Positions 2 to 17,686 of a stretch of DNA of 64,000 nt are shown piece by piece; position 1 is the stretch's first letter; every line of letters starts with the position of its first letter. This DNA is from Halobacteriovorax sp. GB3. Lineage in GTDB: Bacteria > Bdellovibrionota > Bacteriovoracia > Bacteriovoracales > Bacteriovoracaceae. Both the position numbers and the translations under genes were made by a program. The DNA lies in assembly GCF_028649655.1 (NCBI RefSeq), contig NZ_JAQSLN010000004.1, positions 248,001 through 312,000 of the forward strand, written 5' to 3'. The notes under the pieces are model-generated. The model was not told where the DNA came from. It saw only the letters and a list, made by a program, of their open reading frames with translations, and ran no database searches.

Positions 2-37
2 TATAGAATTGTAAGAGAAATAAGGAATACTCGATGA
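2..37 (+). CDS. Possible C-terminal end of an upstream gene (partial)
   Basis: The frame starting at base 2 is open to a TGA at 35-37 that overlaps the ATG of the next gene as ATGA, the same coupling used elsewhere in this cluster. Only 11 residues are visible, so nothing can be said about function. It suggests that the plus-strand cluster continues to the left of the window. It could also be chance, because the stretch is so short. Confidence 0.3.
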   Translation, partial: YRIVREIRNTR

Positions 38-945
38 AGAAAATCATTATTAGTGGTGGTCATGGCTTCTTAGGTCGCGCTCTCGCACTGAAGTTTAAAA
101 AGAAATATAAGATAGTCGTCATTGATAGAGAATCCAATGATGAAACTCAGGGCGATGTGATCTACCGATGGGATATGGCAAAACTTGAAGACGAGCAATT
201 AAAGCAACTCGAAAGTGAAATCAAATCATGTGATGTCTTTATTCATTTCGCTGCTAGTGTTGGTGTCAGTAAAATAAATGATGATCCGAAGAAGGCAATA
301 AGAGATGATCATGCAATCTCTAGTTATTTATTTCCACTACTCGAAAAATATAAAAAGAAAATAATTTTCTCTTCGACATCGGAAGTGTACGGCAATAGAG
401 AGAATTGTACTGAAGGAGATGTTCTTCAAATCGGTGATCCAGAAATACTTCGCTGGGGCTATGCCGCTCATAAGTTAATGTCTGAATTTCTTATTAAGGC
501 CCACAATTTAGAACACACTATTATTCGTCCTTTCAATATTACAGGTAAGGGGCAAACACACAGATATGGAATGGTTCTTCCGACATTTATTCATAAAGCA
601 AAGAATGCAAAGGCCATTGAAGTTTTTGGCAACGGAAATCAAACTCGTTCTTTTTGTGACATCCGTGATTTTGTTAATGTCTTAGAATTAATTATCGAAG
701 AAAATTTATTTAACAACGAGACAATCAATATTGGTAGTGATGAGAATTTCATTACGATTAACGAATTGGCCACTCTACTAAAAGAGTATTACTACCCAGA
801 GCTCATCATCAACTATCGTGAGTTCAAAGAAGTATACAGTAACAGTATGGATGATATTATCTATCGATCACCGAATATTGATAAGTTAAAAAAACACTAT
901 CAACCGCAGTTCTCAATTCAAGATATTATTAAATCAATGCTATGA
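34..945 (+). CDS. NAD-dependent nucleotide-sugar epimerase/dehydratase (extended SDR)
   Basis: The protein has 303 residues. The N-terminal Rossmann motif is G8-x2-G11-x2-G14 (SGGHGFLG), and a TSEVYG segment and a Y-x3-K pair (YAAHK) supply the SDR catalytic residues. The family epimerises, dehydrates or reduces NDP-sugars in the cytoplasm. An AAGGAA ribosome site precedes the ATG. Its stop region overlaps the next ORF by 4 bases, so it forms a unit with the deacetylase, radical SAM and PIG-L genes that follow. With the DegT-type aminotransferase of the convergent operon it suggests synthesis of an unusual amino sugar. The exact substrate cannot be read from the sequence. Confidence 0.85.
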   Translation: MKKIIISGGHGFLGRALALKFKKKYKIVVIDRESNDETQGDVIYRWDMAKLEDEQLKQLESEIKSCDVFIHFAASVGVSKINDDPKKAIRDDHAISSYLFPLLEKYKKKIIFSSTSEVYGNRENCTEGDVLQIGDPEILRWGYAAHKLMSEFLIKAHNLEHTIIRPFNITGKGQTHRYGMVLPTFIHKAKNAKAIEVFGNGNQTRSFCDIRDFVNVLELIIEENLFNNETINIGSDENFITINELATLLKEYYYPELIINYREFKEVYSNSMDDIIYRSPNIDKLKKHYQPQFSIQDIIKSML

Positions 946-1496
946 AAGAAAAAAAAGTTTTAATGATACATGAATTTAAGAAAGAAATGTTGGATCTCAA
1001 TCTAGAAGATTACATTCTAACATTTGATGATGGGCTTTATACTCAGTATTTATTCTTAGAAGAACTCCAACAAATAGATACAAAGAAGATTTTTTTTATA
1101 TCTACAGATATTATCTGCCCCGAAGATGAACAGCAAATTGGTGAATTTATTACTTGTCGCGAGGCCCACCAAAAATACTTCGCAGAGAATAAAACAGCTT
1201 ATTATATGAAGTGGTCTCAAATTAAAGAAATCAACGAAGATCAGAATTGCTCTATCGGTGGACACTCTCACTTTCATAAAAATCTCAAAGACGTAAATGG
1301 ATTAAAAGAACTCTTCGATTACTTAACTCATGACACAGAGAGAATGCTTAAAAACTTCAAAGAGAACTCAATTAAGATCGAAGACTTTTGCTTCCCTTAT
1401 AATTATGAAGCTCCTCTGTATCGAGCAATTCTAGAAAAAAATGGCATCCAGAATTTCTATGGAAAGGAACGTATTGCAATTGAGGATCTTCTATGA
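942..1496 (+). CDS. Polysaccharide deacetylase-like (NodB/CE4 fold) protein
   Basis: The protein has 184 residues. It carries the TFDDG motif typical of the metal-binding first motif of CE4 esterases near residue 28, and a later GGHSHFHKN segment that fits the H-x3-H metal ligands. No signal peptide is seen, so it probably acts in the cytoplasm on a precursor, unlike secreted chitin or peptidoglycan deacetylases. It is coupled by 4-base overlaps to the epimerase before it and the radical SAM gene after it. It is shorter than many NodB domains, so the substrate and even the activity are inferred. Confidence 0.7.
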   Translation: MKEKKVLMIHEFKKEMLDLNLEDYILTFDDGLYTQYLFLEELQQIDTKKIFFISTDIICPEDEQQIGEFITCREAHQKYFAENKTAYYMKWSQIKEINEDQNCSIGGHSHFHKNLKDVNGLKELFDYLTHDTERMLKNFKENSIKIEDFCFPYNYEAPLYRAILEKNGIQNFYGKERIAIEDLL

Positions 1497-2410
1497 AAAT
1501 TAATCAAAAAGAGATTACTCAAGTTGGTCATGGTTCTCCAATGATTATTAATTGGGAACTCGTTTCTCACTGCCAATTCAAATGCAGCTATTGTTACTAT
1601 GACCCTTTTGAAAGTAATACAGATTATGAATCGCTACAGAAAATAATTCAAAAAAAGATTTCAAATATTGATCAACCATTTGTTATCAACCTAATTGGAG
1701 GTGAACCAACGCTTCACCCAAATTTTTCAAAGATCGTTTCATTTCTTCAAGATTTAGAAAAGTGTACAGAAATTAGAATTGTAACCAATTTAGCGAAGCC
1801 GATTCATTTTTGGGATTCTATCTCTTCGACAAAAATCGTTTTAACGGCAAGCTATCACCCGGAATATGACAACGGAAAATTCTTTGAAAAAATCAATCAG
1901 CTCTATGAGAAATTTGATTCAGATGTTCCATTTCTAGTGCCCAATAGTTTAATTCACCTTCCGAGAATGAAAAAGACATTAGAAAATCTATTAAACATTG
2001 ATTCTCCAAGATCTCCTACAATTAATATTATAAGACCCCATTATAAAAGTGGTTACAGCGTTAGTTTTGAACAGTATCCAGAAGAAATAGAACTCTTTAT
2101 TAAAGAAGCAACAACGATTATTTCAAAGAATGAGAATCAAGAAAAAATCAAAGTTTATTCAAAGAATAAAGAAATAGAGATGGCTAAATCCACATTCTTT
2201 GATCTCAACATGCATTATCTAAAAGGGTGGAAATGTAATATAAATGCCTTTATTATCCATTACAATGGCTATGTTTCATCAGCATGTAGAAATGATAAAA
2301 AACATATTATCACGGCCAAGTTTAAATCAACTCCCCTAATCTGCCCTTACCAAGCATGTGAATGTGATGACTTTTGGAATTTTGAAAAATATAGGAATGC
2401 CAATGAATAA
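1493..2410 (+). CDS. Radical SAM protein
   Basis: The protein has 305 residues with the [4Fe-4S]-binding C27-x3-C31-x2-C34 motif (CQFKCSYC) and a GGEPTLHP segment, the usual SAM-contacting GGE motif. Several cysteines near the C-terminus (CRND, CPYQACEC) could hold an auxiliary cluster or a SPASM-like remnant. It overlaps the deacetylase by 4 bases and is followed immediately by the PIG-L gene. It is the only radical SAM gene on this strand, and seven others lie in the opposing operon. The substrate is unknown. The context suggests modification of a carbohydrate or peptide in the same pathway. Confidence 0.9.
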   Translation: MKINQKEITQVGHGSPMIINWELVSHCQFKCSYCYYDPFESNTDYESLQKIIQKKISNIDQPFVINLIGGEPTLHPNFSKIVSFLQDLEKCTEIRIVTNLAKPIHFWDSISSTKIVLTASYHPEYDNGKFFEKINQLYEKFDSDVPFLVPNSLIHLPRMKKTLENLLNIDSPRSPTINIIRPHYKSGYSVSFEQYPEEIELFIKEATTIISKNENQEKIKVYSKNKEIEMAKSTFFDLNMHYLKGWKCNINAFIIHYNGYVSSACRNDKKHIITAKFKSTPLICPYQACECDDFWNFEKYRNANE

Positions 2411-3077
2411 AAAAGTACTCGTCGTAGTTGCTCATCCTGATGATGAAGTCTTAGGAGCAGGTGCAACTATTTTTCAACATTCTATATCCGGAGATACCGT
2501 CAAAGTCATCTGTCTAACAGAAGGAGCTTCAGCTCAAGGGAACGATATACAAAAAAGAGAAGAATCATTTACAAAGGCCTGTCAAACACTTGGAGTAAAT
2601 GATTATAGTATCCTCTCTTTTCATGACAATAAGTTGGATCAATATCCTTTACTAGAACTCATTCAATCAATTGAAAGTGCAACTTTAAATTTTGCTCCCC
2701 AAATAATCTACACACATTCATCTAATGATCTTAATATAGATCATCGAATAGCACATCAAGCAGTGATCACGGCGTTTAGACCTTTACCTCTTTCCAGTGT
2801 AGAGAAAATTCTAACATTCAATATTCCATCGAGTTTTGAATACCGCTCTTCACATATAACGACGCTAAAACCTAATTTTTATAATGAAATTAATGAGCAA
2901 GAATGTAAGCAAAAGCTCTTGGCCATGAGTTGCTATGAGACGGAGTTAAAAGATTATCCCCACCCACGTTCTCATCGCCACTTAAGAAACCTCATGGAAG
3001 TAAACGGAGTGGAAGTTGGGCTTCCGTTAGCGGAATCTTTCTATATAGAACGAATTATTGAGAGTAAAAAGACCTAA
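2403..3077 (+). CDS. PIG-L family (LmbE-like) N-deacetylase
   Basis: The protein has 224 residues from the ATG at 2403. That start has an AGGA site six bases upstream and overlaps the stop of the radical SAM gene; an in-frame ATG at 2358 lies too deep in that gene. The signature AHPDDE metal-binding motif is at the N-terminus and a second zinc-ligand segment (NxDHR, here NIDHR) lies mid-protein. The family removes acetyl groups from N-acetylglucosamine-type substrates using zinc. The 3' end overlaps the convergent aminotransferase gene by 23 bases. Confidence 0.88.
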   Translation: MNKKVLVVVAHPDDEVLGAGATIFQHSISGDTVKVICLTEGASAQGNDIQKREESFTKACQTLGVNDYSILSFHDNKLDQYPLLELIQSIESATLNFAPQIIYTHSSNDLNIDHRIAHQAVITAFRPLPLSSVEKILTFNIPSSFEYRSSHITTLKPNFYNEINEQECKQKLLAMSCYETELKDYPHPRSHRHLRNLMEVNGVEVGLPLAESFYIERIIESKKT

Positions 3078-4146
3078 TCTGATCAATGACATAGTCACAT
3101 TCACTCTTTGTCATTTCAAAGAACACCGGCAAAGAAATTGCTTTAAGGCTGTACTCATCACATTTTTCGAAGTTTAGACCATCATTTTCGTTAAGATAAT
3201 TCTTCCAAAGCGTATGTTGATTTAAACCTTTGAAATGAACAGATGTTTCAATATTCTTGGCCAGAAGAAATTCTCTAAGTTCATCTCTCTTATCAACGAG
3301 AGCAATCAGAAGAGAACAATTACTATTTTCACCTAAGTCGATAAATTGAATACTTTCAATGTCTGATAACTTTTGGCAGTAATATGTAAAAAAGTATTTT
3401 CTCTTTTCTAAGATCTCGTTAAAGACTTTAAGTTGTTCGAAAATTATTGAGGCAGCAAAATCATTACTGTTAAATTTTAAACCTTCTTCTTGAATGTCAT
3501 ATTCAAAAGGACTTATTTTTTCTATTCCATGTAACGAAATCTGTTTCATCTTTTCATACAGATCGAGGTCTTTAGTAATAACTAATCCGCTATCAGGACT
3601 TCCAATAATCTTCGTTGCATGAAAGCTAATAACAGAGACATCGGCATAATCACATACTCCTCTAGACCCAAAGGCTTGTGCTGCGTCTTCAATAATTTTA
3701 AAATTGTACTTTGATTTCAGTTCGTATAATTCTTTAGTATTTGTGATATTTCCTGCTAAAAATACGGGAAGGACAAAATCCACATTTTTAGTTTCTAAAA
3801 TATTTTTTAATGAAGACAAACAATAGTTGCCGGTTTCAAGATCAATATCACAAAAAATAATATTTGCCTTTAAATGAAATGGAACAGCTGCTGTAGAAGA
3901 AAAAGTATTAATTGGAACAACAACAGTATCACCTGGCTCTATTCCGAGGGCCATCAATGCGACATATAAACCACCAGAGGCACTGTTAACGAGTAAGCAA
4001 TGTGTTCCTGGATAGAATTCACTTTGAATTAAATTTTCTACTTCCTCACACATTCTTCCTCTCGTCCAATGACCAGATTCAAGAACGTCTTGAATTTTTG
4101 AAAATGATTTTTTTGGAAAATAAGGTCTATAAAAAGGTATTTTCAT
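3055..4146 (-). CDS. DegT/DnrJ/EryC1/StrS-type PLP-dependent sugar aminotransferase
   Basis: The protein has 363 residues. D154 in the EDAAQA motif should bind the PLP pyridine nitrogen, and K179 in SFHATK should form the Schiff base. These are the hallmarks of the aminotransferases that act on 3- or 4-keto nucleotide sugars. The start ATG shares one base with the stop of the upstream gene (TAATG), so it is translationally coupled. It is the last gene of the long minus-strand operon and converges with the PIG-L gene. With the epimerase at the left end it argues for an amino-sugar component in the pathway product. Confidence 0.9.
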   Translation of the reverse strand: MKIPFYRPYFPKKSFSKIQDVLESGHWTRGRMCEEVENLIQSEFYPGTHCLLVNSASGGLYVALMALGIEPGDTVVVPINTFSSTAAVPFHLKANIIFCDIDLETGNYCLSSLKNILETKNVDFVLPVFLAGNITNTKELYELKSKYNFKIIEDAAQAFGSRGVCDYADVSVISFHATKIIGSPDSGLVITKDLDLYEKMKQISLHGIEKISPFEYDIQEEGLKFNSNDFAASIIFEQLKVFNEILEKRKYFFTYYCQKLSDIESIQFIDLGENSNCSLLIALVDKRDELREFLLAKNIETSVHFKGLNQHTLWKNYLNENDGLNFEKCDEYSLKAISLPVFFEMTKSECDYVIDQIRSFYSQ

Positions 4147-4817
4147 TAGTACAACTTATGGATTTTTACTTTATCGAATGGATATTCACGCGATAGACGT
4201 TTCTTTAAACTATAAAAAGGATTAAAATTCCTCTCTATCAAATATAAATCATTTTTTTGATTACTACAGAAATAAACAAATAGAGGATGCTTTTTAACCA
4301 GTTCCATATATTTTAAATCTATGAATCGAATTTCATTGGTTCCGTACTTTCTAACAATTTTTCCGTATTGCTGACTATAAAAAGGGCTAAGAACTTTCTT
4401 CTTTCCTTTCCAAAACTTACTTACTTCACTCTTTATCCATTTTGCATGGTCATTCGTTAAGAATTCAACAGGAAACCATCCATCTTCACGAGAGTAATAC
4501 TCAAAGACATAGAAGTGTTCACTTTCTTCTAATAATTTAGGAAATATTTGTTGCTCATCTTTAAGTTGAACAATGGCCTCATGAAAGTCTGAAACAGAAA
4601 AGTCCAATTCTTTATCAATATCTTCTGCATCTGTGATCAAGTGATAAAGAGAGTGCTTATGAACATATTTTTTATTCTTATACACAAGAAAATGAAAGTT
4701 CTCTGACTTTGAGAACCCTGTTCCTCTTGGCAAGGAGATGCCAAAGTCGCTGAGAAAGTCACGATTAGCTCTCTCTACTAAATCAACTTTTTTTCGAAGC
4801 TTTTCTTTTAATTGCAA
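4146..4817 (-). CDS. Unknown protein, possibly a degenerate kinase-like fold
   Basis: The protein has 223 residues starting at a TTG with an AAGGAAAG site five bases upstream, overlapping the previous gene by 10 bases. I do not recognise a family with certainty. A YVHK segment, a hinge-like stretch (FYVFEYYSRED) and an IRFIDLKY segment follow the order of the kinase Lys, hinge and DFG-like elements of small aminoglycoside- or lipopolysaccharide-kinase folds, but there is no clear HxD catalytic motif. It sits between a GT-A-like gene and a sugar aminotransferase, so a role in glycan synthesis or transfer is plausible. The kinase idea is inference. Confidence 0.6.
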   Translation of the reverse strand: MQLKEKLRKKVDLVERANRDFLSDFGISLPRGTGFSKSENFHFLVYKNKKYVHKHSLYHLITDAEDIDKELDFSVSDFHEAIVQLKDEQQIFPKLLEESEHFYVFEYYSREDGWFPVEFLTNDHAKWIKSEVSKFWKGKKKVLSPFYSQQYGKIVRKYGTNEIRFIDLKYMELVKKHPLFVYFCSNQKNDLYLIERNFNPFYSLKKRLSREYPFDKVKIHKLY

Positions 4818-5659
4818 TCGAACTTTCCTTTTGTTCTTTTAAAGAAATCAATCTTCTCTCTCACTTTGTTATAGTAAGAAGAATGATGTATATGCTCATG
4901 CCAAAAATATATCGAATCGATCTCTTCATCAGAATAATGATTGATTGAAGCATAGCCCTCTCCAACCTGATATTTCTGAATCCCTTTTATCGGAAGTCGT
5001 TTTTCATTCAAGGCCACATCTATGACATACTCTTCAAGAAAATGCTCTGGAACATCCTGACAATTTTTCTTCCAGCGATCATCACCTTTTGTCTCGTAGA
5101 GCTTCATAAGTTCTTTATAGTAATATTCGTAAAATCCACTATCTCTTCTTGAGATCAGAAATCCCGTATCAACCGGGTTCTCCCATTCCTCAACAACAAG
5201 TCGCTGATCTTTTTTTGATACATCATCATATTGACCACATAAAATATATTTTTCGTTATATACGCCCTCGATCATTGACTTTGGAAGCGGTTGAATAAGT
5301 TTCATATCAAGGTCAATGTGAATGAGAATATCTTCACTAAGTTCTTGCTCTAAGATATATCCACAAAAAGGAGCATTAATATAACCAGACTGGAAATTTT
5401 CCACTTCTGGGTGGTATTTTTCAATATAAGTGACGTTGAGATCTTTAAGCTTTGCCTTTGTCTTTTCACTGATTACATTTTTGGAAGGACAGTAAGCATA
5501 GATGGCCATATCTTTCAGCCATCCACCGTTTTTTCTCCAAGCTTCAAAGCAAAGAATGGCTTCATCTTCATATAATCTTTGATGCTCAAAAGTGATGCCG
5601 TTTATATCATTAATACACTGTTTATTACTTTCTATTGCTGTAACTAAAGCTACCTTCAT
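4808..5659 (-). CDS. Probable GT-A-like glycosyltransferase
   Basis: The protein has 283 residues. It starts with a short beta strand (MKVALVTAIES), and an IHIDLDMKL segment near residue 115 fits the DxD metal/nucleotide-sugar site of GT-A enzymes. A later VDTGFLISRRDSG segment resembles the acceptor-side region of such proteins. No membrane segment is seen, so it should be cytoplasmic. The ATG lies 5 bases past the stop of the amidinotransferase gene and has an AGGA site. It was assigned from motif layout only, so the family is uncertain. Confidence 0.6.
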   Translation of the reverse strand: MKVALVTAIESNKQCINDINGITFEHQRLYEDEAILCFEAWRKNGGWLKDMAIYAYCPSKNVISEKTKAKLKDLNVTYIEKYHPEVENFQSGYINAPFCGYILEQELSEDILIHIDLDMKLIQPLPKSMIEGVYNEKYILCGQYDDVSKKDQRLVVEEWENPVDTGFLISRRDSGFYEYYYKELMKLYETKGDDRWKKNCQDVPEHFLEEYVIDVALNEKRLPIKGIQKYQVGEGYASINHYSDEEIDSIYFWHEHIHHSSYYNKVREKIDFFKRTKGKFDCN

Positions 5660-5664
5660 ATATC

Positions 5665-6759
5665 CTACTTCGTGTAATCTCTATACTCATCTTCGCGATG
5701 AAGATCTAATGTTGAACAATGAATTCCTCCACCGAAGATTTCACAATTATCAAGCCTTACCGTTTCAACGTCAAAACTATTTTTACTCAATAATTCGATA
5801 ACACTTACTGCTGACTCATTAACCAAAACGGTCTTTTCATCAAGACTTAATATATTTATATCCATTCCTCTTGTACTAGCTAATTGAATATCAATATTAG
5901 TCATTCCTTCAGTTATTTTTGGTTCAACTTCATAGTCTTGCGGATATAAGTATTCCCAGTTTTGAAATTTCTTTGGCATGATATTTTTAAGATTGGGATA
6001 CTTTGGATTAACAAGAAAAACCCCAGGCCTAAGGCAGACGAGAACACCGTCGATATGGTTATCGGCGACATGAACAATATGAAAATGAGAGTCAGGATAA
6101 AATGATTTTATCCATTCCAAACCAAGATAATGATTATAGGAATTTACATTTACAATAACGTCTCTTCCAATTCTTAAGAATTGAGCTCCATCGATCGCCA
6201 TCGTATACTTTGATCTATCAAAACTTGAATAGTCTCTATGACTATCCCAATTCTCTAAGTCCATCTTTTCTTCTATGAGCTGATTAAAGGGTGATTTAAT
6301 CCACTTACCTCCCTGCCCACAATCAAATGCCTCATTGAAAACATCATACAGAAGTGTATTTTCGTAATAGCGATTTCTGACATAAGTTGGTGTTTCAAAA
6401 ATCGTATCACCGTAGACAAGTGAAACATCTCGTACATTACTTGCACTTGATAGCTCACTTTTAAAATCGGGTGTTGTAAATGGAATGACTTTTGTTAAGC
6501 GATTAGGCCTTTTCACCTCAACACCTAAATTACCTAGTTTCTTTGCAAGATCATCTAGCTGTTCTACTCGTTTAACTAAAAATTCATGATTTACATAATA
6601 AGTTTCCTCATCCGAAATGAGCTTGTCATAAACGGCATGAGTTAAATTTTCCTTGTAAAAATGTTGAAAAGAAAAATCAGCAACCCTCTTTGTTATTTCA
6701 AGTTCGCGACCTACGATCACTGTTTTTAATTTGCCGAAAGATGTATTACTTTTAATCAT
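5665..6759 (-). CDS. Amidinotransferase (arginine:glycine amidinotransferase/StrB-like)
   Basis: The protein has 364 residues. The segment RDVSLVYGDTIFETP matches the conserved N-terminal part of the guanidino-modifying family. H235-x-D237 (NHIDG) and C348 in GGGIHCST match the His-Asp and nucleophilic Cys of AGAT and of the streptomycin enzyme StrB. The family moves the amidino group of arginine to an amine, making a guanidino compound and ornithine. It overlaps the upstream radical SAM gene by 8 bases, with an AAGGA site. Within this operon it suggests that an amino group, possibly one installed by the aminotransferase, becomes a guanidine. Confidence 0.88.
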   Translation of the reverse strand: MIKSNTSFGKLKTVIVGRELEITKRVADFSFQHFYKENLTHAVYDKLISDEETYYVNHEFLVKRVEQLDDLAKKLGNLGVEVKRPNRLTKVIPFTTPDFKSELSSASNVRDVSLVYGDTIFETPTYVRNRYYENTLLYDVFNEAFDCGQGGKWIKSPFNQLIEEKMDLENWDSHRDYSSFDRSKYTMAIDGAQFLRIGRDVIVNVNSYNHYLGLEWIKSFYPDSHFHIVHVADNHIDGVLVCLRPGVFLVNPKYPNLKNIMPKKFQNWEYLYPQDYEVEPKITEGMTNIDIQLASTRGMDINILSLDEKTVLVNESAVSVIELLSKNSFDVETVRLDNCEIFGGGIHCSTLDLHREDEYRDYTK

Positions 6760-7666
6760 TCTTTATCCTTAAGGAATTAATTGTATCGTAATCAAAATTT
6801 TCAACATAGGTTCCGCAGTTCAAAGAACATTGTCTTAGATCACCATGATCTTGAAAATCACAGCAGAACATCTTTGAGAATTTAATAAAATCACTTATAA
6901 ATGCTAATTCACTTTCATATTCGTAAATAGAAGGAGCCTCTATTTCACCTCTTCTATAAATAAAAGAAACACAAGGATAAGCACGTCCATTTGAGTTAAT
7001 ATAAATTCTTTTAAACCATGGACTTTGCTTTATAGAAATCCCAGATTCGTACAAAACACTGACATCGCCAACAGAACTTAGCTGTCGTGGCGGTTCAATA
7101 TGTTTTGCAACTATTGTCGTATCTCTAAAGAGTAATTCTATACCGAATTTTTCAAATATTAAATCACGAGTGTGCTCAGCATATTCCTCATTTAATTTAT
7201 GTCTAGAATAAATGATCTCGATATCAATTTCATTTTCTAGTGCAAACTTGATATTCTCAAATACTTTTGAAAGGTTTCCACCAAGACGAGTTAGCTCATG
7301 CGTTCTTTGATCTGGTCCATCAACAGCAATTTGAAATGTTATTCCCTTAACTGTTTTTGTAATTCCTAAGAGCACTTCCTCAAGAAGTTCACCATTTGTG
7401 GCCACAAGGATTTTCGAATCATGAAAGCATTCGTTTAAGGCAGGCAAGATTTCTTTTATATTACTATGTTCAAGTGGTTCGCCATCATTACCACAAACAA
7501 ATAACTCTTTGGGGTGAAATTTCTTTAAAAGAGGTAGAATTTCTAGAACAGATAGCTCTCGAGCTTTACTTGAATTGGATTTAAGACTTTGACAGCCAAC
7601 ACACTGAAGATGACATGAGTTATTCAAACTTAATTCTATAAATTCAAAAAACTTATCATATTTCAT
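6752..7666 (-). CDS. Radical SAM protein
   Basis: The protein has 304 residues with cluster motif C18-x3-C22-x2-C25 (CHLQCVGC) and an ELFVCGNDGEPL segment in place of the usual GGEP loop. A C-terminal set of cysteines (CVSF, CCDF, CSLNCG) could bind an auxiliary cluster. The start at 7666 gives a one-base TAATG overlap with the upstream gene; an alternative 42 bases earlier would run far into that gene. It is less similar to the three preceding radical SAM paralogues than they are to one another. The substrate is unknown. Confidence 0.88.
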   Translation of the reverse strand: MKYDKFFEFIELSLNNSCHLQCVGCQSLKSNSSKARELSVLEILPLLKKFHPKELFVCGNDGEPLEHSNIKEILPALNECFHDSKILVATNGELLEEVLLGITKTVKGITFQIAVDGPDQRTHELTRLGGNLSKVFENIKFALENEIDIEIIYSRHKLNEEYAEHTRDLIFEKFGIELLFRDTTIVAKHIEPPRQLSSVGDVSVLYESGISIKQSPWFKRIYINSNGRAYPCVSFIYRRGEIEAPSIYEYESELAFISDFIKFSKMFCCDFQDHGDLRQCSLNCGTYVENFDYDTINSLRIKND

Positions 7667-9505: not shown

Positions 9506-9507
9506 AT

Positions 9508-10449: not shown

Positions 10450-11494
10450 TGCCATTCTCCCTATTATAATCACAAATAGGATAATGCCCTCTGCGATAAA
10501 AATTCACATCTTCGATTTTTTCCCCACGAACAGGATAGAGTTCTTGCTCGCTTACAACTTTTTTCTCCACACCATCGCAGATGAAAAAATATTTACAATC
10601 AAAGCATTCTTTTTTCTTTGAATACGTGTATTCTCTCTTTCTTTTTGCTACTTCAAAATAATCTTTTATTGAGACTTCTTTTACTTCGAACTGATCAACT
10701 TCGTATGTCATTATATTCCAGTCATCACGATCAAAAATATGCTGATATACACCTACAACATATTTCTCATAGCCTTTCATAAAGCAATATGGGATGTAGC
10801 GTACATTGATTTCAATTTCGGGATTAAGCTTATCAATTGCCTTTTTGATTGATTCACTTAATAGATTATAACTATGTACTTCAAGTTTATTAGCATCTTC
10901 CCAGTAGTTAAGAGGAAGAAAATTTAATTGTTCTGGTTTTATCTGATTAATTAAATCGACATAGTGAGATTCAAGAAAATCAAAATTCTTATTTGTAACA
11001 GTGCAATTGATACGAATGCGAATTCCAACTTCTTTGCAATTTGATATGGCCTTTAAAATCTTTCGATAGGCCCCCTTGCGTCCAACAATTTCATCGTGAC
11101 TTTTTTCATCATATCCATGAACACTAAAAAGTAATTCTTTGAGACCATGCTGGAATGATTTTTTAGCAAAATCTAAATTAGCAAACTTAGAGCCATTTGT
11201 TAGTGCCGAAATATGAGTAAATCCCAGCTCATTACAATAATCTAGAATTTGAAACCAATCTCTATGAACGGCACTTTCTCCACCGCTTAAATCAACTTCA
11301 CTAATACCAAAGTCTCTAAGTTTCTTTGCTCTTTTTTTTATGATATCGACTGGAGTTATTTTATCGAGGTCATTGAGATAATAACAAAAATAGCACTCAT
11401 AATTACAGAATGTTCCTGTATCTAATTTTGCTCTTTGATTGTATTTATCCTCAACGAGTTTTAACCCTGTTGAGCTAAAAATATTATAATCCAA
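10442..11494 (-). CDS. Radical SAM protein with SPASM-like C-terminus
   Basis: The protein has 350 residues, starting at a TTG with an AGGA site seven bases upstream that overlaps the stop region of the previous gene. The cluster motif is C30-x3-C34-x2-C37 (CNYECYFC), followed by DLSGGESAVH with the canonical GGE loop. C-terminal cysteines in CFDCKYFFICDG are the likely auxiliary-cluster ligands. Of the seven in this operon, this is the most ordinary-looking radical SAM core. It is closer to general SPASM enzymes than to the tandem trio that follows. The substrate is unknown. Confidence 0.88.
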   Translation of the reverse strand: MDYNIFSSTGLKLVEDKYNQRAKLDTGTFCNYECYFCYYLNDLDKITPVDIIKKRAKKLRDFGISEVDLSGGESAVHRDWFQILDYCNELGFTHISALTNGSKFANLDFAKKSFQHGLKELLFSVHGYDEKSHDEIVGRKGAYRKILKAISNCKEVGIRIRINCTVTNKNFDFLESHYVDLINQIKPEQLNFLPLNYWEDANKLEVHSYNLLSESIKKAIDKLNPEIEINVRYIPYCFMKGYEKYVVGVYQHIFDRDDWNIMTYEVDQFEVKEVSIKDYFEVAKRKREYTYSKKKECFDCKYFFICDGVEKKVVSEQELYPVRGEKIEDVNFYRRGHYPICDYNRENGNE

Positions 11495-12392
11495 TATGTT
11501 TTCCTAAGATCTCTACGATAGGATCATTTTCATTTAAATGAAGCGATTCAAAGTCATGATCAATATCCCATTTTCTCCAATAAAGCCCCTTATCTTCATC
11601 CCAATAGTCTATATTATGATACACGACTTCTTTACCAAAATAATGGCATTCCGCGATCATACGAGGACTACAATCGAACTTTCGAGGTACAGGGGTATAA
11701 ATATAAGTTGAGAACTTTTCAAAGAGATTTTCGACCGGCATTTCAGGGAATTTGAAGCGCTTATCAAAACCAGTCGGTCTATTCTCTTTGTTTGTTAAAC
11801 AAATAAAATCTCCGTCGTATTTTTCTAAGAGATCGAAATACATCTGATCGGGAATATTTCGACAATTTTTTGTGCCATAGAGAAGATAGGCCTTCTCTTC
11901 TTTGATTGGTTTAATTAATCGTTCAAAATTAATCTTCTTCTTATAATCGATACTATTGAGACAATCGCGATAAATCCTCTTATCTTGCAAGATATAGACA
12001 TTCTCGTTTGTATTATCTTGCAGCTCTTTATCACCACAAGCAAAATGAAATGTCTTATGACAGAGGATGTGTTTTTTTTCCAGTGACTTTGCTCCACCAT
12101 CGGTGAAAAGAATATGATTTGCATGCACAAGATTTGGACGATTACAGAAGACTGTATTTCTCTTTAATTCTTCAAGTTCATCTTGGCCTACAATATACTT
12201 AGCTGTTACTGACTTTTGAAAAGTTTCCCAATCAATGTCTTCGGCCAGAAGAATTCCCACTCTCATATATTTTTTTAGATGGAAATAATAATCGATGACT
12301 TCATAAGTATGCCCACAAATACCATGATTTGTATTGCTCCAACTATACGTGATCCATAAATCGTAATTTTCCTTATCTAATCTTAAAATCAT
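11484..12392 (-). CDS. Unknown, possibly GT-B glycosyltransferase-like
   Basis: The protein has 302 residues from the ATG at 12392, one base past the TGA of the upstream gene; a GTG 18 bases earlier lies inside that gene. I do not recognise a family firmly. The C-terminal third, with YIYTPVPRKFDCSPRMIAE and a later GKEVVYHN strand, resembles the nucleotide-sugar-binding half of GT-B enzymes, where a conserved Glu follows a surface-exposed loop. It has no signal peptide or membrane segment. Its neighbours point to a role in modifying the same product. Confidence 0.55.
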   Translation of the reverse strand: MILRLDKENYDLWITYSWSNTNHGICGHTYEVIDYYFHLKKYMRVGILLAEDIDWETFQKSVTAKYIVGQDELEELKRNTVFCNRPNLVHANHILFTDGGAKSLEKKHILCHKTFHFACGDKELQDNTNENVYILQDKRIYRDCLNSIDYKKKINFERLIKPIKEEKAYLLYGTKNCRNIPDQMYFDLLEKYDGDFICLTNKENRPTGFDKRFKFPEMPVENLFEKFSTYIYTPVPRKFDCSPRMIAECHYFGKEVVYHNIDYWDEDKGLYWRKWDIDHDFESLHLNENDPIVEILGKHIGL

Positions 12393-12393
12393 A

Positions 12394-13197
12394 TCATTCC
12401 AAAAAGGCACTTATTAACTTATCACTTTCACTCAATTGATAATGAGTTAGTCCATTTTCTTTAATATCAGTATAGCGAATTTTTATACTATCCTGCACCC
12501 CTCTTTCAAAAATCCTGACATCCTTGCCATAATAGAAGCTCTCTGGAATGAGTCTATTATTAGTGTCCATATCTCCATCTTGAAAATAGAGTAATGTATC
12601 GAATTGCTCATGAAGTTTTTGATGATGAAAGCTTGGAGTCTTATATATTTTTTCTTTACTAGCGAATTCATCTGGGATTTTAATTTTATCGTAATTCATA
12701 GAATGACAGACAACTAAGGCCTTATCTTTCACAGAGTTTAGATCTAAATAATGTTCAAATGAGAATTTTAATATTTCATCGACATCAAAGTCTTGATAGT
12801 CATAATGACCATAATAGGTAATCTCTTTTGTTTTATAACGCTGAAGTCCGTTCGATTCATTTGCAAAAACAAGAAGCGGGCAATTAAGTAGATCACCAAG
12901 TAACTTCAAAGTATGAACGTCAAGCATCAAACATTTTATGGCCTTAAATTTAAAGATATCGACACTTCTTTGAATGGCCAAAATATCATTTTCTAAAGAA
13001 GGGTCAAATTGATATCGTTCTTTAAAGATAGCAATTGCCCACAGTCTTTGTTCCTGCGAGCAATTATGTAATATGAATTTAATATTTTTTTCAAACTTTC
13101 TAGCAAATAGGAAGTATTCGAAACAATAAAACAGTGTTCCATTGATTTTCCGATGTTCCTTAAGTGAATAGACAATGGTCTTAAAAGAATGTTGAAT
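12394..13197 (-). CDS. Unknown protein with non-canonical start (ATT or +1 frameshift)
   Basis: The reading frame is open from 13206 to the stop at 12394. It is protein-like throughout, for example GTLFYCFEYFLFARKFEKN near the start and LLVFANESNG later. There is no ATG, GTG or TTG in the first 73 codons; the first is a TTG at 12981, well inside the coding part. An AGAGGA site lies just before ATT codons at 13200 and 13197, so an ATT start of about 267 residues is likely. A +1 slip at TTT-TAA-G at the end of the preceding gene is the other possibility. The fold may be glycosyltransferase-like (N-terminal strand then helix). Its function is not known. Confidence 0.65.
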   Translation of the reverse strand: MQHSFKTIVYSLKEHRKINGTLFYCFEYFLFARKFEKNIKFILHNCSQEQRLWAIAIFKERYQFDPSLENDILAIQRSVDIFKFKAIKCLMLDVHTLKLLGDLLNCPLLVFANESNGLQRYKTKEITYYGHYDYQDFDVDEILKFSFEHYLDLNSVKDKALVVCHSMNYDKIKIPDEFASKEKIYKTPSFHHQKLHEQFDTLLYFQDGDMDTNNRLIPESFYYGKDVRIFERGVQDSIKIRYTDIKENGLTHYQLSESDKLISAFLE

Positions 13198-13789
13198 AAT
13201 ATTCCTCTAAAAAATTATTTGTTAGCTCTTCAATTTTCTCAGTGCATTCTTCTTCATTTACAAGTTTTCTAAAATGATTGAATTTCTGATTAAGGGCACT
13301 CACGCGATCAATTTCATCACGCATATTCAGATAGTCTTCAAGTTTTTGAATCAGTGATTCATCGCCTGTTTCTAAGATTTCTAGATATTTTTGTTCTCTA
13401 TTTTCCGCGGTAATGAAAAAACCTTTATCGGAAAGTTCATTATTAAGACACATGAAATTATAGAAAGTGAATCCACTAATAGAAGCTAAATCAGGAGTTA
13501 CTACCATACGAGCTTTCTTAAAAGCCGATTCACGAGCGTACTTCGTATCATTTTCATCTGCTTGAATAATTTTAATTTCATGTGGCATGACCTCTACGTG
13601 AGCGAGAGGTTTTGTAACTCTAATCTCTAGTCCCTTTGTCATAGCTTCTTTAATCAGAGCAGCTGAAACGGCCGATAGATTGAGTAGTTTTTCAGGTCTT
13701 TCTATTGAATCGAGTGTATGTGGATAAACATTCGTAACATACCAATATGATCCTCTATCTTCTACAGCTGCAACATCATACATCATCAT
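13181..13789 (-). CDS. Unknown protein of the radical SAM operon
   Basis: The protein has 202 residues and I recognise no family. It begins with three ATG codons after an AAGGGAAG site, 16 bases past the stop of the cysteine-rich gene. The N-terminal half looks like a mixed alpha/beta domain (YWYVTNVYPHTL, LEIRVTKPLAHVEV). The C-terminal half (about 130-202) is charged and helical. There is no signal peptide and only isolated cysteines. The stop context TTC-TTT-TAA-G overlaps the next frame by 17-20 bases. Position directly after the cysteine-rich protein suggests a partner or chaperone role, but this is only inference. Confidence 0.75.
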   Translation of the reverse strand: MMMYDVAAVEDRGSYWYVTNVYPHTLDSIERPEKLLNLSAVSAALIKEAMTKGLEIRVTKPLAHVEVMPHEIKIIQADENDTKYARESAFKKARMVVTPDLASISGFTFYNFMCLNNELSDKGFFITAENREQKYLEILETGDESLIQKLEDYLNMRDEIDRVSALNQKFNHFRKLVNEEECTEKIEELTNNFLEEYYSTFF

Positions 13790-13804
13790 ATTAATCTTCC
13801 CTTT

Positions 13805-14314
13805 TTAATAGTGACATCCACAATCATTGTGACAAGTACAAACAGCATTACACGCACAGTCTGTATTACAAATACAGTCTGATCGAATTGAGTTGTATTT
13901 ATTAACAATTAGTTGAATTTCAGTTTGGCGAATTTCATTACCTGTTACAGGCGTAAATGTTACTGAACCCATGTTATTTCCATCGGACCCATCATCAGCT
14001 GCGTTGAATGACTCGAGTCGATCGACAGGTAGCGACTTAGATGTAATTGCATTTGCCGGAGAGACATTGACACCTTGGCTTGAGTTTGAGTTTACAAAAG
14101 TATTCAATCCACCATAGTTTAAGGCATGAGCTCTATACGTCGTAAGTTCAGCCGCAATCTTATTTCTAAGATCATCGAGATCACTCTTTTTGATCGACTC
14201 TCCTACAGTAAAACTTTGAGATAAAGTTCTATTCGATGGACAAACACTTCTGTGTCCTGAGCATGTTGTTGTTCCGGTACTGTGATTGGTACAGTGCGCT
14301 CCACTACAGGCCAT
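13805..14314 (-). CDS. Cysteine-rich protein with C-terminal CxC repeat; candidate radical SAM substrate
   Basis: The protein has 169 residues. Four cysteines lie in the first 25 residues (C3, C8, C18, C25). A Cys-free middle contains a helical segment (SDLDDLRNKIAAEL). The last 23 residues hold eight cysteines as four CxC pairs spaced by three residues (CIC-CAC-CTC-CGC). It starts within the stop of the upstream SPASM gene, behind a GAGG site. From memory, Cys-rich CxC tails of this kind occur in some phage tail-associated proteins. Placement right after a SPASM maturase makes it a candidate modified peptide or metal-binding structural protein. No leader cleavage site is evident. Confidence 0.8.
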   Translation of the reverse strand: MACSGAHCTNHSTGTTTCSGHRSVCPSNRTLSQSFTVGESIKKSDLDDLRNKIAAELTTYRAHALNYGGLNTFVNSNSSQGVNVSPANAITSKSLPVDRLESFNAADDGSDGNNMGSVTFTPVTGNEIRQTEIQLIVNKYNSIRSDCICNTDCACNAVCTCHNDCGCHY

Positions 14315-15512
14315 GTTCTACCTCTTTTTCTCTTTTTGATTTCATCATATTTGCATAAATATATTTCTGAACTGCTCTATCGATTTCACCAAATGTTTTA
14401 AAAAATCCGCAAAGTTCATTTACCCAATTATCTTTCCACTTATCAAAGAACTCTTCTTTATCACTCTTTTCATGACTGGCAACAGGACAAATCATACAAG
14501 TGGTAGCAACGCACTCCTGACATTCTTTTGCTGTTGACTGAAGTGGTTTTTCAAACTTTGATGTATAGGCGATGAGCTTTTCTACAAAGTCATCATCATA
14601 AATATCGGTATGTGCTAACTCTTCTTTGTGTTTCGAATAAATTGCTCCGTGACAAGCGTAGAGGTTCCCGCGTTGATCAATGGCGGCCATGTTATATCCC
14701 GCTGCACAGTGCTTTCTATTATCATCACCACCAAACCAAGAACAAAGATAACGTCCGTGCTCGCGGTAAAATTCAATTTCGCGCTTTGCAATTTTTAAAA
14801 ACTGCTTTCTAAATTCTTCAATTGCCCCTTGTTTTTCTTCAAGAGTAAATTTCGTAATGTAATCAACAGTCGGTGCATAATTGATATTGATTGTCGGAGA
14901 GACTTTCCAAAGTAATTCTTGAATTTCATAGAAATCGGTCCAACAAGAATAGATATTTTCCATGCTATCAATTGGTAACGTTGACTTTACACTAACGTTG
15001 ACACCTCTTCGTGCTAATTCATAGAGGTTATTAATAACCTGATTACTTGATGTCTTTTTATTTTTCGATAGACGGAAATTATCATTAATAGCTCTTCCAT
15101 CATAAGAGACTTGAACACGAAGCTTAGATAGATCGACATGCTCGATAATCTTATTCATATTCTTCATATTGAACGCATTCGTATAAAGATGAAAATCAAC
15201 ATTATCATGATTCTCATACTTCTTCATCAGCGTCACAATAAAGCCAGGGTTAAGCGTTGGCTCCCCTCCCCAAAGGGAAATATTTAATCCACTATATTTT
15301 TCTTGAAACCATTCTTTATTATCTAGAATGGCATCGATTCTTTTAAAAATAAGAGGAAGATCACCGTCAAGTCTAGCAGGGTCAACTTTCTCTCCTTCAA
15401 AGCAATAAGTACAACTTAAATCACAAAGCGCAGAAGTCGTGATTTCGAGATTGAAATAACCTTTTACTTTTTTATCTAATTTTCTATTTTGCTCGTTTAC
15501 TAAATCAACCAT
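14304..15512 (-). CDS. Radical SAM/SPASM maturase-like protein
   Basis: The protein has 402 residues. The cluster motif is C30-x3-C34-x2-C37 (CDLSCTYC), followed by ISLWGGEPTLNP. The C-terminal SPASM region contains HCAAGYN, a DQRGNLYACHGA stretch and CQECVATTCMIC, seven or more cysteines that would bind two auxiliary clusters. Such enzymes modify ribosomal peptides or activate sulfatases. Its start abuts the stop of the 72-residue gene, whose TAG sits within the ribosome site region (GGAGG). It is directly followed by the cysteine-rich protein, the likely substrate. Confidence 0.9.
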   Translation of the reverse strand: MVDLVNEQNRKLDKKVKGYFNLEITTSALCDLSCTYCFEGEKVDPARLDGDLPLIFKRIDAILDNKEWFQEKYSGLNISLWGGEPTLNPGFIVTLMKKYENHDNVDFHLYTNAFNMKNMNKIIEHVDLSKLRVQVSYDGRAINDNFRLSKNKKTSSNQVINNLYELARRGVNVSVKSTLPIDSMENIYSCWTDFYEIQELLWKVSPTININYAPTVDYITKFTLEEKQGAIEEFRKQFLKIAKREIEFYREHGRYLCSWFGGDDNRKHCAAGYNMAAIDQRGNLYACHGAIYSKHKEELAHTDIYDDDFVEKLIAYTSKFEKPLQSTAKECQECVATTCMICPVASHEKSDKEEFFDKWKDNWVNELCGFFKTFGEIDRAVQKYIYANMMKSKREKEVEHGL

Positions 15513-15731
15513 CTAATCCTCCAGGTCCGCGTTTAAAATTTCATCGAGAAGGCTATCTAATTTCTCATCTGAAACTTTCTCTTCCTCTGGAATAATAGAA
15601 TTCACAAGCTCCATTGCTTGTGTCGCTAGTTTTTGACCAAATTCAGGATCTATTCCACCAAGATGTTTGGAAGCTTCCAGTAAGTGATAAGCACCCAAGT
15701 ACATACTTCGGTTTAAGCTTTTAAGATTCAT
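15513..15731 (-). CDS. Small helical protein between two SPASM genes
   Basis: The protein has 72 residues, acidic in the second half (PEEEKVSDEKLDSLLDEI) and predicted helical by eye, with no cysteine. It overlaps the end of the upstream SPASM gene by 11 bases and abuts the start of the next. Small genes in this position often encode peptide-recognition partners (RRE/PqqD-like) or precursor peptides. I see no PqqD winged-helix pattern, and the lack of Cys argues against a thioether precursor. Function is not known. Confidence 0.7.
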   Translation of the reverse strand: MNLKSLNRSMYLGAYHLLEASKHLGGIDPEFGQKLATQAMELVNSIIPEEEKVSDEKLDSLLDEILNADLED

Positions 15732-16725
15732 AAATTTCTCTCTTCAAGAGCTCTTTAAACACCCTATTGTTTTTTAACTCTCGTGTCATTCGTTGCACTT
15801 CACGATAGAAATGTTTGTACATGGTGCAGATTTCATCAATTGGCCCTTCGTTCTTTATATTTTCAAAGAGACAACCCTTACGACAGTAGTTCTTAACTAC
15901 ACACTGCTCACATTCTTCCATTAATCTATACTCTTCGATTTTATCAACAAGATCGGAATTCTTAAACCTATTACAGGGAATTAATTTATTCTCCGTATAA
16001 GAGAGATGCTGATCACCAGCACCGCAATTATGAGAAGTGTGACCCTTAGCACCATATCGAATAACATGGCGAAGATAATTTAAAACAATCTTAGGTATTT
16101 CAACCTCATCACAGGAGTCAATGTACCAGTCCACAAGCTCGCTAAAGCCCTGATTGACGGCCTGTGCTTGCTCATAACTCCAAATATCAACATCACGAAT
16201 AAGTGTTAAATCTGGATTAAGCCCCAATTTCTCTAGAATATAGAGATGGTTTTCTAAGAGATTACTATTTCCAGGATCGATCATCGAGTGACACGCAAGG
16301 TCATTTAATTCACGTATGATTGGAAATTTCTTTTCATAGAGATGATTTGTTCCCTGTCCATCGTGCTGTATTCTTTTAGCATCTTGCCAAAGACCATCGT
16401 AAGAAAGAGATACCTTTACCGAGTAATCGTTAAGAAATCTCACCTTCTCTTCATCAAGTAATAGACCATTTGTCGGCATATAAAATTCGACTTGTGGATC
16501 AGAAGAAAGCTCTTTGGTTATGCGAACAATTTTATTCCAATGAAGGAGTGGTTCTCCCCCATAAAAGTCTATTTTGATTCTTTCATTCGGATTATTCCTT
16601 CTCACCTCACTAAATGAATGGAGAAAGAGATTTTCATCAATCGACTTTTTTGAAAGTTTATCGACATTGCAATAGGAGCAATTTAAATTACAAGCTTCAG
16701 AGAATGCAATGGAAAGTGTTTTCAT
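15721..16725 (-). CDS. Radical SAM/SPASM protein
   Basis: The protein has 334 residues from the ATG at 16725, which has an AGGAAAG site and lies 8 bases past the stop of the upstream gene; the longer frame starts inside that gene. The cluster motif is C12-x3-C16-x2-C19 (CNLNCSYC), then DFYGGEPLLHW. The C-terminal region has HNCGAGDQHLS, IPCNRF and CEQCVVKNYCRKGC, a good SPASM pattern. It probably acts on a peptide or protein, perhaps one of the two unusual proteins in the operon head. Confidence 0.9.
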   Translation of the reverse strand: MKTLSIAFSEACNLNCSYCNVDKLSKKSIDENLFLHSFSEVRRNNPNERIKIDFYGGEPLLHWNKIVRITKELSSDPQVEFYMPTNGLLLDEEKVRFLNDYSVKVSLSYDGLWQDAKRIQHDGQGTNHLYEKKFPIIRELNDLACHSMIDPGNSNLLENHLYILEKLGLNPDLTLIRDVDIWSYEQAQAVNQGFSELVDWYIDSCDEVEIPKIVLNYLRHVIRYGAKGHTSHNCGAGDQHLSYTENKLIPCNRFKNSDLVDKIEEYRLMEECEQCVVKNYCRKGCLFENIKNEGPIDEICTMYKHFYREVQRMTRELKNNRVFKELLKREIYES

Positions 16726-16733
16726 TAACTTTC

Positions 16734-17255
16734 CTACTTCACCTTCACCCAATGACGTCCATCAACTTGAATTTCTTTCCCTTCAACACCAAACGAATCT
16801 TTTGGTTCAGGCTTTTTATAAATTGCGATTAAACGCTCAGGGTAATTTCTCTTTTCTTCAAGAGTCATTTCAGTGAGATTTCCATTTTCATCATTTGTAA
16901 GAGGTGTTCCTGGATCATAGTCTTTATCGACATAAGCGAGCACCCAGCCAGCAACAGCAATCGGAACTTCACTTGCAGCATTTCCTGAGCCTACAGCAAA
17001 TCCAAAAGTATCAGAAGCAATTCCCATTAAACTCATCTGACATCTCTCAGTCGCAAGTCTTGCGCCTTCAATTGTGTCGATATAGCACTTACCATAAACT
17101 AATTTGTCATTTAATAACTGAAAGTCTGCAATATCATTCCAAACAGCATTCCAAACCCTAAAGGCCTTGAACTCATTTTCAAAATAAACATCAGATCCGG
17201 TATTTACAGTATGGGCACCATTAGCTGCGATTGAACAACGTCTAAAGTTTGCCAT
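16734..17255 (-). CDS. Phage-tail-fibre-like protein, first gene of the radical SAM operon
   Basis: The protein has 173 residues from the ATG at 17255, which has a GGAG site six bases upstream; a TTG 12 bases earlier lies within that site. The second half (IASDTFGFAVGSG, then PIAVAGWVLAYVDK and GTPLTNDENGNLTEM, then DGRHWVKVK at the end) resembles, by eye, the C-terminal peptidase_G2-like beta domains at the end of some phage tail proteins. It has two or three cysteines and no signal peptide. As first gene it is likely the most strongly translated. It may be a surface appendage subunit modified by the enzymes encoded behind it (inference). Confidence 0.75.
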   Translation of the reverse strand: MANFRRCSIAANGAHTVNTGSDVYFENEFKAFRVWNAVWNDIADFQLLNDKLVYGKCYIDTIEGARLATERCQMSLMGIASDTFGFAVGSGNAASEVPIAVAGWVLAYVDKDYDPGTPLTNDENGNLTEMTLEEKRNYPERLIAIYKKPEPKDSFGVEGKEIQVDGRHWVKVK

Positions 17256-17311: not shown

Positions 17312-17686
17312 ATGAAACGAAGAAACTTTATTGTTGCCTCTTTTTTTGCTGCCTTTAGCGCCAAGGCCTTTGCTCATAAGTTTAACCGAGTAAAAAAGAC
17401 GGATACTAATCAATTTGAACTTCTTAAGTGCAATGATACTTGTATCAATCTTAAAAGTGGTACGACATACGTTCTACCTAAGGAACCTAAGTCCCTAGAA
17501 TCGATTATTCACTTTAAAGTCATGAAAACAAAGTGGTCAAAAAGCCCTGTTCTTAATCCTCAAGAAAAAACAATCAATGACATTAATGGTCTCTTTGAAG
17601 TTGAAAAACATGTCGATTTAAGTACATCTCGCTATTTTTCACTTCAATACTTAGGAGAGGATCTTGGCTGGGTCGTACTTGGCTAA
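17312..17686 (+). CDS. Small exported protein with Tat-like signal
   Basis: The protein has 124 residues. The N-terminus, KRRNFIVASFFAAFSAKAFA, has a twin arginine followed by a hydrophobic stretch and an AxA-type cleavage site, which fits a Tat signal peptide. The mature part of about 100 residues has two cysteines (CNDTC) and no family I recognise. It is divergent from the radical SAM operon, sharing a 56-base intergenic region. A link to that operon is possible but not shown. Confidence 0.6.
   Translation: MKRRNFIVASFFAAFSAKAFAHKFNRVKKTDTNQFELLKCNDTCINLKSGTTYVLPKEPKSLESIIHFKVMKTKWSKSPVLNPQEKTINDINGLFEVEKHVDLSTSRYFSLQYLGEDLGWVVLG

Follow-up and report, generated by a model that had tools for sequence, protein, structure and literature searches.

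The window analysed here, a stretch of 64,000 nucleotides from Halobacteriovorax sp. GB3 (contig NZ_JAQSLN010000004.1, positions 248,001 to 312,000), opens with a dense group of radical S-adenosylmethionine (radical SAM) genes, most of them in one long operon. Based on comparisons of this operon with viral and bacterial genomes, we propose that it is probably a phage-type cassette for the maturation of fibre tips, which resides in a Bdellovibrionota chromosome, has the cysteine-rich tip protein R (13805-14314, minus strand) as its substrate and has been adopted for a surface fibre. Maturation of phage fibre tips by radical SAM enzymes, resembling that of ribosomally synthesized and post-translationally modified peptides (RiPPs), is the best reading of the locus, the chemistry of which we infer.

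Results

The operon and its counterpart in T4-like phages

Radical SAM membership was assigned by a match to PF04055 above the cut-off together with the CX3CX2C motif, the cysteines of which are invariant in the alignment of S. Eight proteins encoded within approximately 15 kb of the window (G+C content 36%) qualify, one on the plus strand (C, 1493-2410) and seven on the minus strand (I, 6752-7708; J, 7666-8583; K, 8573-9505; L, 9508-10473; M, 10442-11494; U, 15721-16752; S, 14304-15512, also termed rSAM2). With 22-23 such matches in the 3.62 Mb genome, the Poisson probability of eight in this interval is about 2e-13, hence the clustering is not due to chance. The minus-strand genes belong to a single operon of 17 genes, running from 17255 to 3055 in the order V, U, T, S, R, Q, O, N, M, L, K, J, I, H, G, F, E, with neighbours overlapping or at most about 20 bp apart, and converging with the plus-strand genes A, B, C and D. 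The radical SAM-dense cluster described in the initial annotation is thus borne out by family matches and gene spacing. Promoter-like sites are rarer in the real sequence than in shuffles, and terminator-like sites slightly commoner.

Scanning IMG/VR with rSAM2, R, U and Q recovered some 30 viral contigs in which a fibre gene is followed by U-T-S-R-Q-O-N-M, i.e. the order found in the bacterium, beside tail-fibre or baseplate genes of tailed phages. Many of these cassettes continue into L, K, J or H, G, as in contig L063 (L-K-H-G). The gene upstream of the phage cassette is a tail fibre according to PHROG (long tail fibre distal subunit, 7e-17), and the T4 portal PF07230 is present in 8 of 14 cassette records versus 0 of 14 control genomes. 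The operon proteins N (3e-30), Q (1e-13), M (7e-96), H (3e-84) and G (2e-47) likewise match PHROG profiles. Furthermore, genes for N and Q, along with T-like and U-like ones, occur in Campylobacter T4-like phages, as does a block, gp080-gp089 in CP220, homologous to L/K/J-H-G, that is the radical SAM trio, the amidinotransferase and the glycosyltransferase (GT) genes. This block, comprising five radical SAM genes and a putative glycine amidinotransferase, was reported for CP220 and CPt10 by Timms et al. in 2010 as an interchangeable, probably metabolic module (PMC2853527), so that the view of the initial annotation, which knew of no described system with this composition, is not supported.

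A cysteine-rich tip directly behind the maturases

Directly after rSAM2, 31 of 32 viral contigs encode a cysteine-rich open reading frame, and in 18 of the 32 this tip (CICNSDCSCNxVCxCHNDCGCNY) continues without a gap into SDxRLKxxI, with which the Peptidase_S74 (S74) chaperone begins; Pfam confirms the domain in R of contig L042 (PF13884, 1.7e-7). Most phage R proteins, which measure 150-300 residues with the fibre chaperone, end in CICNSDCSCNNVCSCHNDCGCNY or in (CTCNCNY)n repeats. Among 38 loci selected solely for the presence of U, 27 have a cysteine-rich frame within 6 kb downstream and 2 have one upstream. S74 trimerises fibre proteins and then cleaves itself off at the serine of this junction, as shown for a mosaic adhesive trimeric (MAT) fibre of Bdellovibrio (PMC10769870); consequently, mature phage R would end in ...CGCNY. 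The bacterial R, a homolog of the phage proteins that run into S74, has the C-terminus CICNTDCACNAVCTCHNDCGCHY and ends in ...CGCHY, its stop codon being located exactly where S74 would cleave. The domain (PF13884) is accordingly missing from R in the window, and present in its phage homologs and in the neighbouring prepilin. Searches of V and R with hidden Markov models in Pfam, NCBIfam and PHROGs returned nothing useful.

The enzymes preceding R, U (rSAM1; PF04055 8e-11) and S (PF04055 4e-10), are of the SPASM type: S scores 27.5 bits against a cut-off of 27 for TIGR04085, and C-terminal cysteines are conserved in the alignments of both. PapB (NF047865) is the best NCBIfam model for both (8e-31 for U, 5e-29 for S), and in the PDB U is most similar to 5wgg, recorded as a radical SAM domain protein, which we take to be CteB. 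The rSAM2 profile had no match in the PDB. R is the likely substrate of these maturases, mainly because tip and radical SAM enzyme change together, in phages and bacteria alike.

Two exchangeable classes of tip

In place of the tip described above (class A), most other genomes carrying V encode a protein of about 200 residues ending in CHSSCHGSRGRR or similar, with the pattern CHxSCHSSCHGS, beside different radical SAM enzymes and 2-oxoglutarate (2OG) oxygenases (class B). Among 20 V genomes, class A rSAM2 is found in 3 and the class B tip in 14, while none has both; two further genomes show only weak radical SAM similarity to class A. The class B tip is situated on the contig of V, within approximately 16 kb, in 11 of its 14 genomes. 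In phages, a dedicated radical SAM gene stands directly before the class B tip in 32 of 32 viral loci, all found through the tip, and a fibre C-terminal domain lies upstream in 27 of them.

The class B system in Bdellovibrionota consists of V, an S74-prepilin, W, several radical SAM enzymes, 2OG oxygenases and the tip (L034, L035, L037 and L038), and the viral loci are L164-L195. L038 (IMGVR_UViG_2883826669_000001) agrees with the chromosomal V locus of G125 in the lengths and scores of V and prepilin, and is probably a misclassified provirus. Several phage tip proteins (L046, L081, L084, L085, L091 and L136) contain long (CTCNCNY)n arrays with dozens of alternating cysteines, often before S74. 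Other cysteine-repeat proteins (CQxxCQ, CQTxCQ) beside U-like radical SAM enzymes in viral contigs (L051:11332-12156 and L100:13825-14644) are possibly further tip classes. The T-like gp020 of CP220 (L021:10829-11206) has the C-terminal cysteine motif CDHESCGC, though no separate cysteine-rich tip lies nearby. In the Pelagibacter phage Mosig (L024, record 60990-68321), N-like, radical SAM, DegT, carbamoyltransferase and nitroreductase genes are present near tail-fibre and peptidase S74 genes.

Fibre and prepilin partners in the bacterium

V (16734-17255, minus strand; ATG at 17255 after GGAG) heads the operon in the slot held by the fibre gene in phage cassettes, and is homologous to the C-termini of viral fibre-like proteins of about 620 residues (L039, 1e-28; L040, 3e-23; L041, 1e-13). 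A tblastn search of V against annotated phages found nothing. The proteins at the operon head, previously noted as structural-looking, are structural indeed, and of fibre type; the phage tail-fibre-linked nature of the operon, and R as the likely substrate, had been missed.

Of 369 genomes in the phylum, 20 have V, which the congener G001 lacks. In 17 of the 20, an S74 protein, usually beginning like a prepilin, is encoded at most 1.5 kb from V; in the genome of the window (G000) and in G012, a member of another genus in the same family, it is located at the far end of the cassette, bringing the total to 19 of 20 V loci, with the remaining locus (G040) near a contig end. The protein of G000, an S74-prepilin of 484 residues (G000:C4:246250-247704), is encoded just upstream of window base 1 and combines a prepilin N-terminus (PF07963, 20.4 bits, just under the cut-off of 21.2) with a C-terminal S74 domain (PF13884, 1e-15); its homologs in G012 and L035 exceed both cut-offs. 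A frequent third partner is W (17312-17686, plus strand), a small, putatively exported protein with a signal-peptide-like N-terminus, divergent from V and kept beside it in G012, G029 and other V loci. The system hence extends on both sides beyond the operon, and not merely to 17255 as originally delimited. A fibre-like frame near V in G040 (L033:9958-10626) has a W-like motif (IYTGTTIGWVIY) at its C-terminus, which suggests that W is a relative of fibre knobs. The only other S74 domain in the G000 genome (C3:1046937-1047092, L196) lies in an open frame of 1409 residues, possibly a MAT-type fibre.

Core, accessory module and origin

In G012, 21 of 21 genes are retained in the same order and orientation, most at 50-76% identity. 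In the third genus, represented by G029 (Bdellovibrionales bacterium RIFOXYD12_FULL_39_22), U-T-S-R-Q is intact with V, W, A, B, M, N and O nearby, and the L/K/J trio and the amidinotransferase are missing or replaced. Since many phages also have U-T-S-R-Q without them, the trio, amidinotransferase and GT block form a separable accessory module, the core being V, U-T-S-R-Q and O-N-M. The proposal in the initial annotation of one pathway decorating a surface protein or glycan is therefore upheld as regards a conserved pathway, which probably modifies a surface protein, and the expectation that relatives keep the head genes with trio and amidinotransferase applies to G012 but not to G029 or many phages. 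rSAM2 occurs in 4 of 97 relatives, weakly in one of the four; a scan of genome contigs with the single rSAM2 sequence gave no match, and an alignment-based scan recovered only the G029 record and distant radical SAM enzymes.

Phylogenetically, the bacterial rSAM2 and Q fall without support among phage sequences, N groups the bacteria together, and in the tree of M the bacterial pair is nested beside two phage contigs with good support. Around the cassette, the genes sampled are of ordinary bacterial kinds (HIT, EPSP synthase, DHQ synthase, GST, YebC) rather than capsid, tail or integrase genes, i.e. not those of a prophage. In view of these flanks and the far larger diversity in phages, capture from phages is likelier than the reverse, though not proven. 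An antiviral role was dropped, as PADLOC returned generic viperin-like radical SAM similarity only.

The remaining genes

The plus strand encodes an NAD-dependent sugar epimerase/dehydratase (A, 34-945; PF01370, 4e-38) and a polysaccharide-deacetylase-like protein (B, 942-1496; PF01522, 1.8e-6, above the cut-off), both kept in G012 and G029 and the latter with relatives in phages L046 and L059, followed by radical SAM protein 8 (C; PF04055, 5e-7), homologs of which recur in phage clusters, and a PIG-L family deacetylase (D, 2403-3077; PF02585, 4e-28). At the distal end of the operon, E (3055-4146) is a DegT/DnrJ/EryC1 aminotransferase (PF01041, 1.3e-67), PseC-like with 214 bits for TIGR03588 against a cut-off of 423. 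F (4146-4817; 223 residues) has no Pfam or PHROG match and is 40% identical to its G012 copy. GT-A-like G (4808-5659) belongs to phage family phrog_23758 and is homologous to CP220 gp082, gp088 and gp089, of which the records of gp088 and gp089 note a nucleotide-diphospho-sugar transferase domain. H (5665-6759) is an L-arginine:glycine amidinotransferase (AGAT)/StrB-type enzyme, matching PDB 2jdx (4e-34) and 1bwd (4e-28), with NHIDG and GGGIHCSTLD present and 44% identity to CP220 gp086. The amidinotransferase, DegT, epimerase and both deacetylase calls of the initial annotation consequently stand.

I (radical SAM protein 7; PF04055, 1e-12) precedes the trio J (protein 6; 3e-16; with phage homologs), K (protein 5; 2e-10) and L (protein 4; 7e-15) on the map. 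M (protein 3) represents phrog_27238 and takes the same slot in phage cassettes, and N (11484-12410), of phrog_24441 with Campylobacter phage homologs, is possibly a GT-B-like transferase, judging from its conserved DCSPRxxxEC motif. Transferase-like O (12394-13176) has no canonical ATG, GTG or TTG start in G000 or G012, its frame running on upstream and matching the N-terminus of phage O. The gene reaches from 12394 to approximately 13176, and the 60-residue frame called earlier at 12993-13175 is spurious. In the region of its start (12394-13220, minus strand; L005:13500-13720), translation could either begin at a putative AUU codon (13176) or enter the frame by a +1 shift where Q ends (TTC TTT TAA G).

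Q (13181-13789; phrog_25260) comprises a small beta domain and a long helical bundle in a well-folded AlphaFold2 (AF2) model (predicted local distance difference test, pLDDT, 85), and adjoins the baseplate hub gene in CP220 (gp015). Q may be an assembly factor; as fold searches with the model yielded only weak or helical-bundle matches, this role is a guess. T (15513-15731), a helical protein of 72 residues between two radical SAM genes, is retained by G012, and 16 of the 32 phage contigs also have it.

Discussion

Proposed maturation mechanism

We propose the following mechanism, which builds on the observed gene order, homologies, S74 fusions and swapping of tips, and which infers from them the chemistry, the target of each enzyme, display at the surface and recognition of prey. 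R would be the fibre-tip protein, with its cysteine-rich C-terminal stretch as the substrate onto which the SPASM enzymes U and S, of the PapB/CteB kind, introduce radical-derived links. These are most likely thioether-type, PapB forming Cys-Asp/Glu thioethers (PMC9413430). T and Q perhaps assist. O-N-M-L-K-J-I-H-G-F-E and A-B-C-D would add further groups, such as an amino sugar and an amidino group, to the tip or to an attached glycan; the AGAT-type amidinotransferase, DegT enzyme, epimerase, deacetylases, GT-like G, possibly O and N, and the further radical SAM enzymes look like a decorating set. In phages, the tip, encoded beside the long tail fibre, would trimerise via its C-terminal S74, which then cuts itself off and leaves ...CGCNY as the exposed end. 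In the bacterium, the gene of R stops at the cleavage point, the fibre domain would be the separate protein V, and a protein resembling type IV prepilins, encoded next to the cassette, carries S74. Hence, the modified tip is probably displayed on a surface fibre recognising other cells, conceivably prey. In broader terms, there is about an even chance that tailed phages harden or functionalise the exposed fibre tip by radical SAM-made crosslinks, that at least two independent classes of tip and enzyme serve this end, and that Bdellovibrionota took over both for pilin-anchored fibres with modified tips.

Several observations weigh against this mechanism. U and S reach 107.6 and 101.7 bits for PapB, far below the cut-off of 340, so that neither the reaction nor the exact bond follows from their family assignment. 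In Campylobacter phages, which possess genes resembling U, T and Q, no cysteine-rich tip lies within 6 kb of U. The connection of V to the fibre C-terminus of the L042 type runs through intermediates only, with a probability of 5% in direct profile comparison, and its AF2 model has a pLDDT of 38. Finally, the alternating CxC pattern of the tip could hold metal instead.

The latter point leads to an alternative in which the R tip is a metal-binding needle with its cysteines facing inward in the trimer, and the radical SAM enzymes act on another target. The tip of T4 gp37 is filled with iron, and both the strict alternation of cysteines in (CTCNCNY)n tips with their CxC spacing and the trimeric fibre implied by S74 are compatible with such a needle. 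We nevertheless judge this alternative unlikely, in light of the tight adjacency of S and R and of a second, different tip (CHSSCHGSRGRR) that is likewise placed directly behind its own radical SAM enzyme. Metal binding and modification of R could also both be true.

Less probable still is a surface-glycan (lipopolysaccharide or capsule) cluster, by which phages would remodel the surface of their host and the bacterium that of itself, with only an incidental presence of R and V. The epimerase, DegT enzyme, two deacetylases, GT-like G and amidinotransferase H are what such a cluster would contain, and host-recognition islands of pelagimyophages with glycosyltransferases, which also hold radical SAM cassettes, were tied to surface alteration by their authors (PMC7029224). 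However, this leaves unexplained why two SPASM maturases directly precede a cysteine-rich fibre protein in 31 of 32 contigs, and why tip class and radical SAM class switch jointly. Moreover, no polymerase or flippase was found among the cassette genes, and G029 and many phages have the core while lacking most of the sugar genes.

That the cassette is a decaying phage remnant, functionless in the bacterium, is very improbable. Core genes and their order are shared with phages, and the distribution is that of accessory DNA (V in 20 of 369 genomes, not in G001), but the open reading frames are all intact and syntenic across two genera, most at 50-76% identity, the flanks are ordinary bacterial, and many genera retain V alongside the S74-prepilin while the tip class is exchanged. 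Processing of R into a secreted RiPP, be it an antibiotic or a signal peptide, would fit a cysteine-rich ribosomal substrate beside PapB/CteB-like maturases, yet is hardly credible given that no RiPP-type peptidase or export gene was found and that R-type proteins are 150-300 residues long, carry a fibre chaperone in phages and are encoded next to genes for the baseplate and fibre.

Crosslinks made by radical chemistry have been described for small peptides and a few enzymes. If maturation of the fibre tip as proposed here is true, a radical-modified receptor-binding tip adds a new level to the way phages recognise hosts and stabilise virions, the puzzling radical SAM gene sets of many T4-like phages are explained, and bacteria are seen to reuse phage fibre parts together with their finishing enzymes as surface fibres. 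For work on peptide crosslinking, the loci would also provide a large collection of enzymes naturally paired with tips.

Comparison with known systems

No paper connecting radical SAM enzymes with tail fibres was found in the literature searched, an absence that is weak evidence. The closest enzymes, the PapB/CteB ranthipeptide maturases, give the best NCBIfam (U and S) and PDB (U) matches and also act on a cysteine-rich ribosomal substrate; in contrast, U and S score a third of the cut-off, and the substrate here is a fibre protein of 150-300 residues instead of a short leader-bearing peptide. The CXXX-repeat and cysteine-rich peptide systems (TIGR04115, CcpM) similarly place a SPASM radical SAM enzyme beside a protein with regularly spaced cysteines, but these models score U and S far under the cut-off, and we know of no fibre context for them.

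The MAT fibres of Bdellovibrio, a predatory relative, are phage-tail-fibre-like surface proteins, many ending in S74 (PMC10769870). They are, however, long single fibres described without mention of radical SAM enzymes, whereas in the present system a prepilin bears S74 and the tip, which is probably modified, is a protein of its own. With V, R and W all below 200 residues, compared to a beta domain of about 130 residues after the signal peptide and a long fibre in MAT proteins, membership of that family is unlikely.

The hypervariable host-recognition cluster of pelagi- and cyanomyophages is a T4-like island beside tail fibres with glycosyltransferases and radical SAM cassettes, interpreted as changing the host surface, and no cysteine-rich substrate is identified in the passages considered (PMC7029224). 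The modules of CP220 and CPt10 (PMC2853527) combine homologous radical SAM enzymes, the AGAT-type amidinotransferase (44% identity) and GT-like genes in one block, with N, Q, T-like and U-like genes elsewhere in the phage genome; they differ in having been described as an interchangeable metabolic module of no assigned use, not linked to fibres, and in lacking a cysteine-rich tip near U. The radical SAM and amidinotransferase submodule has thus been on record, unexplained, from Campylobacter phages since 2010, and new here is the phage tail-fibre-linked origin of the operon.

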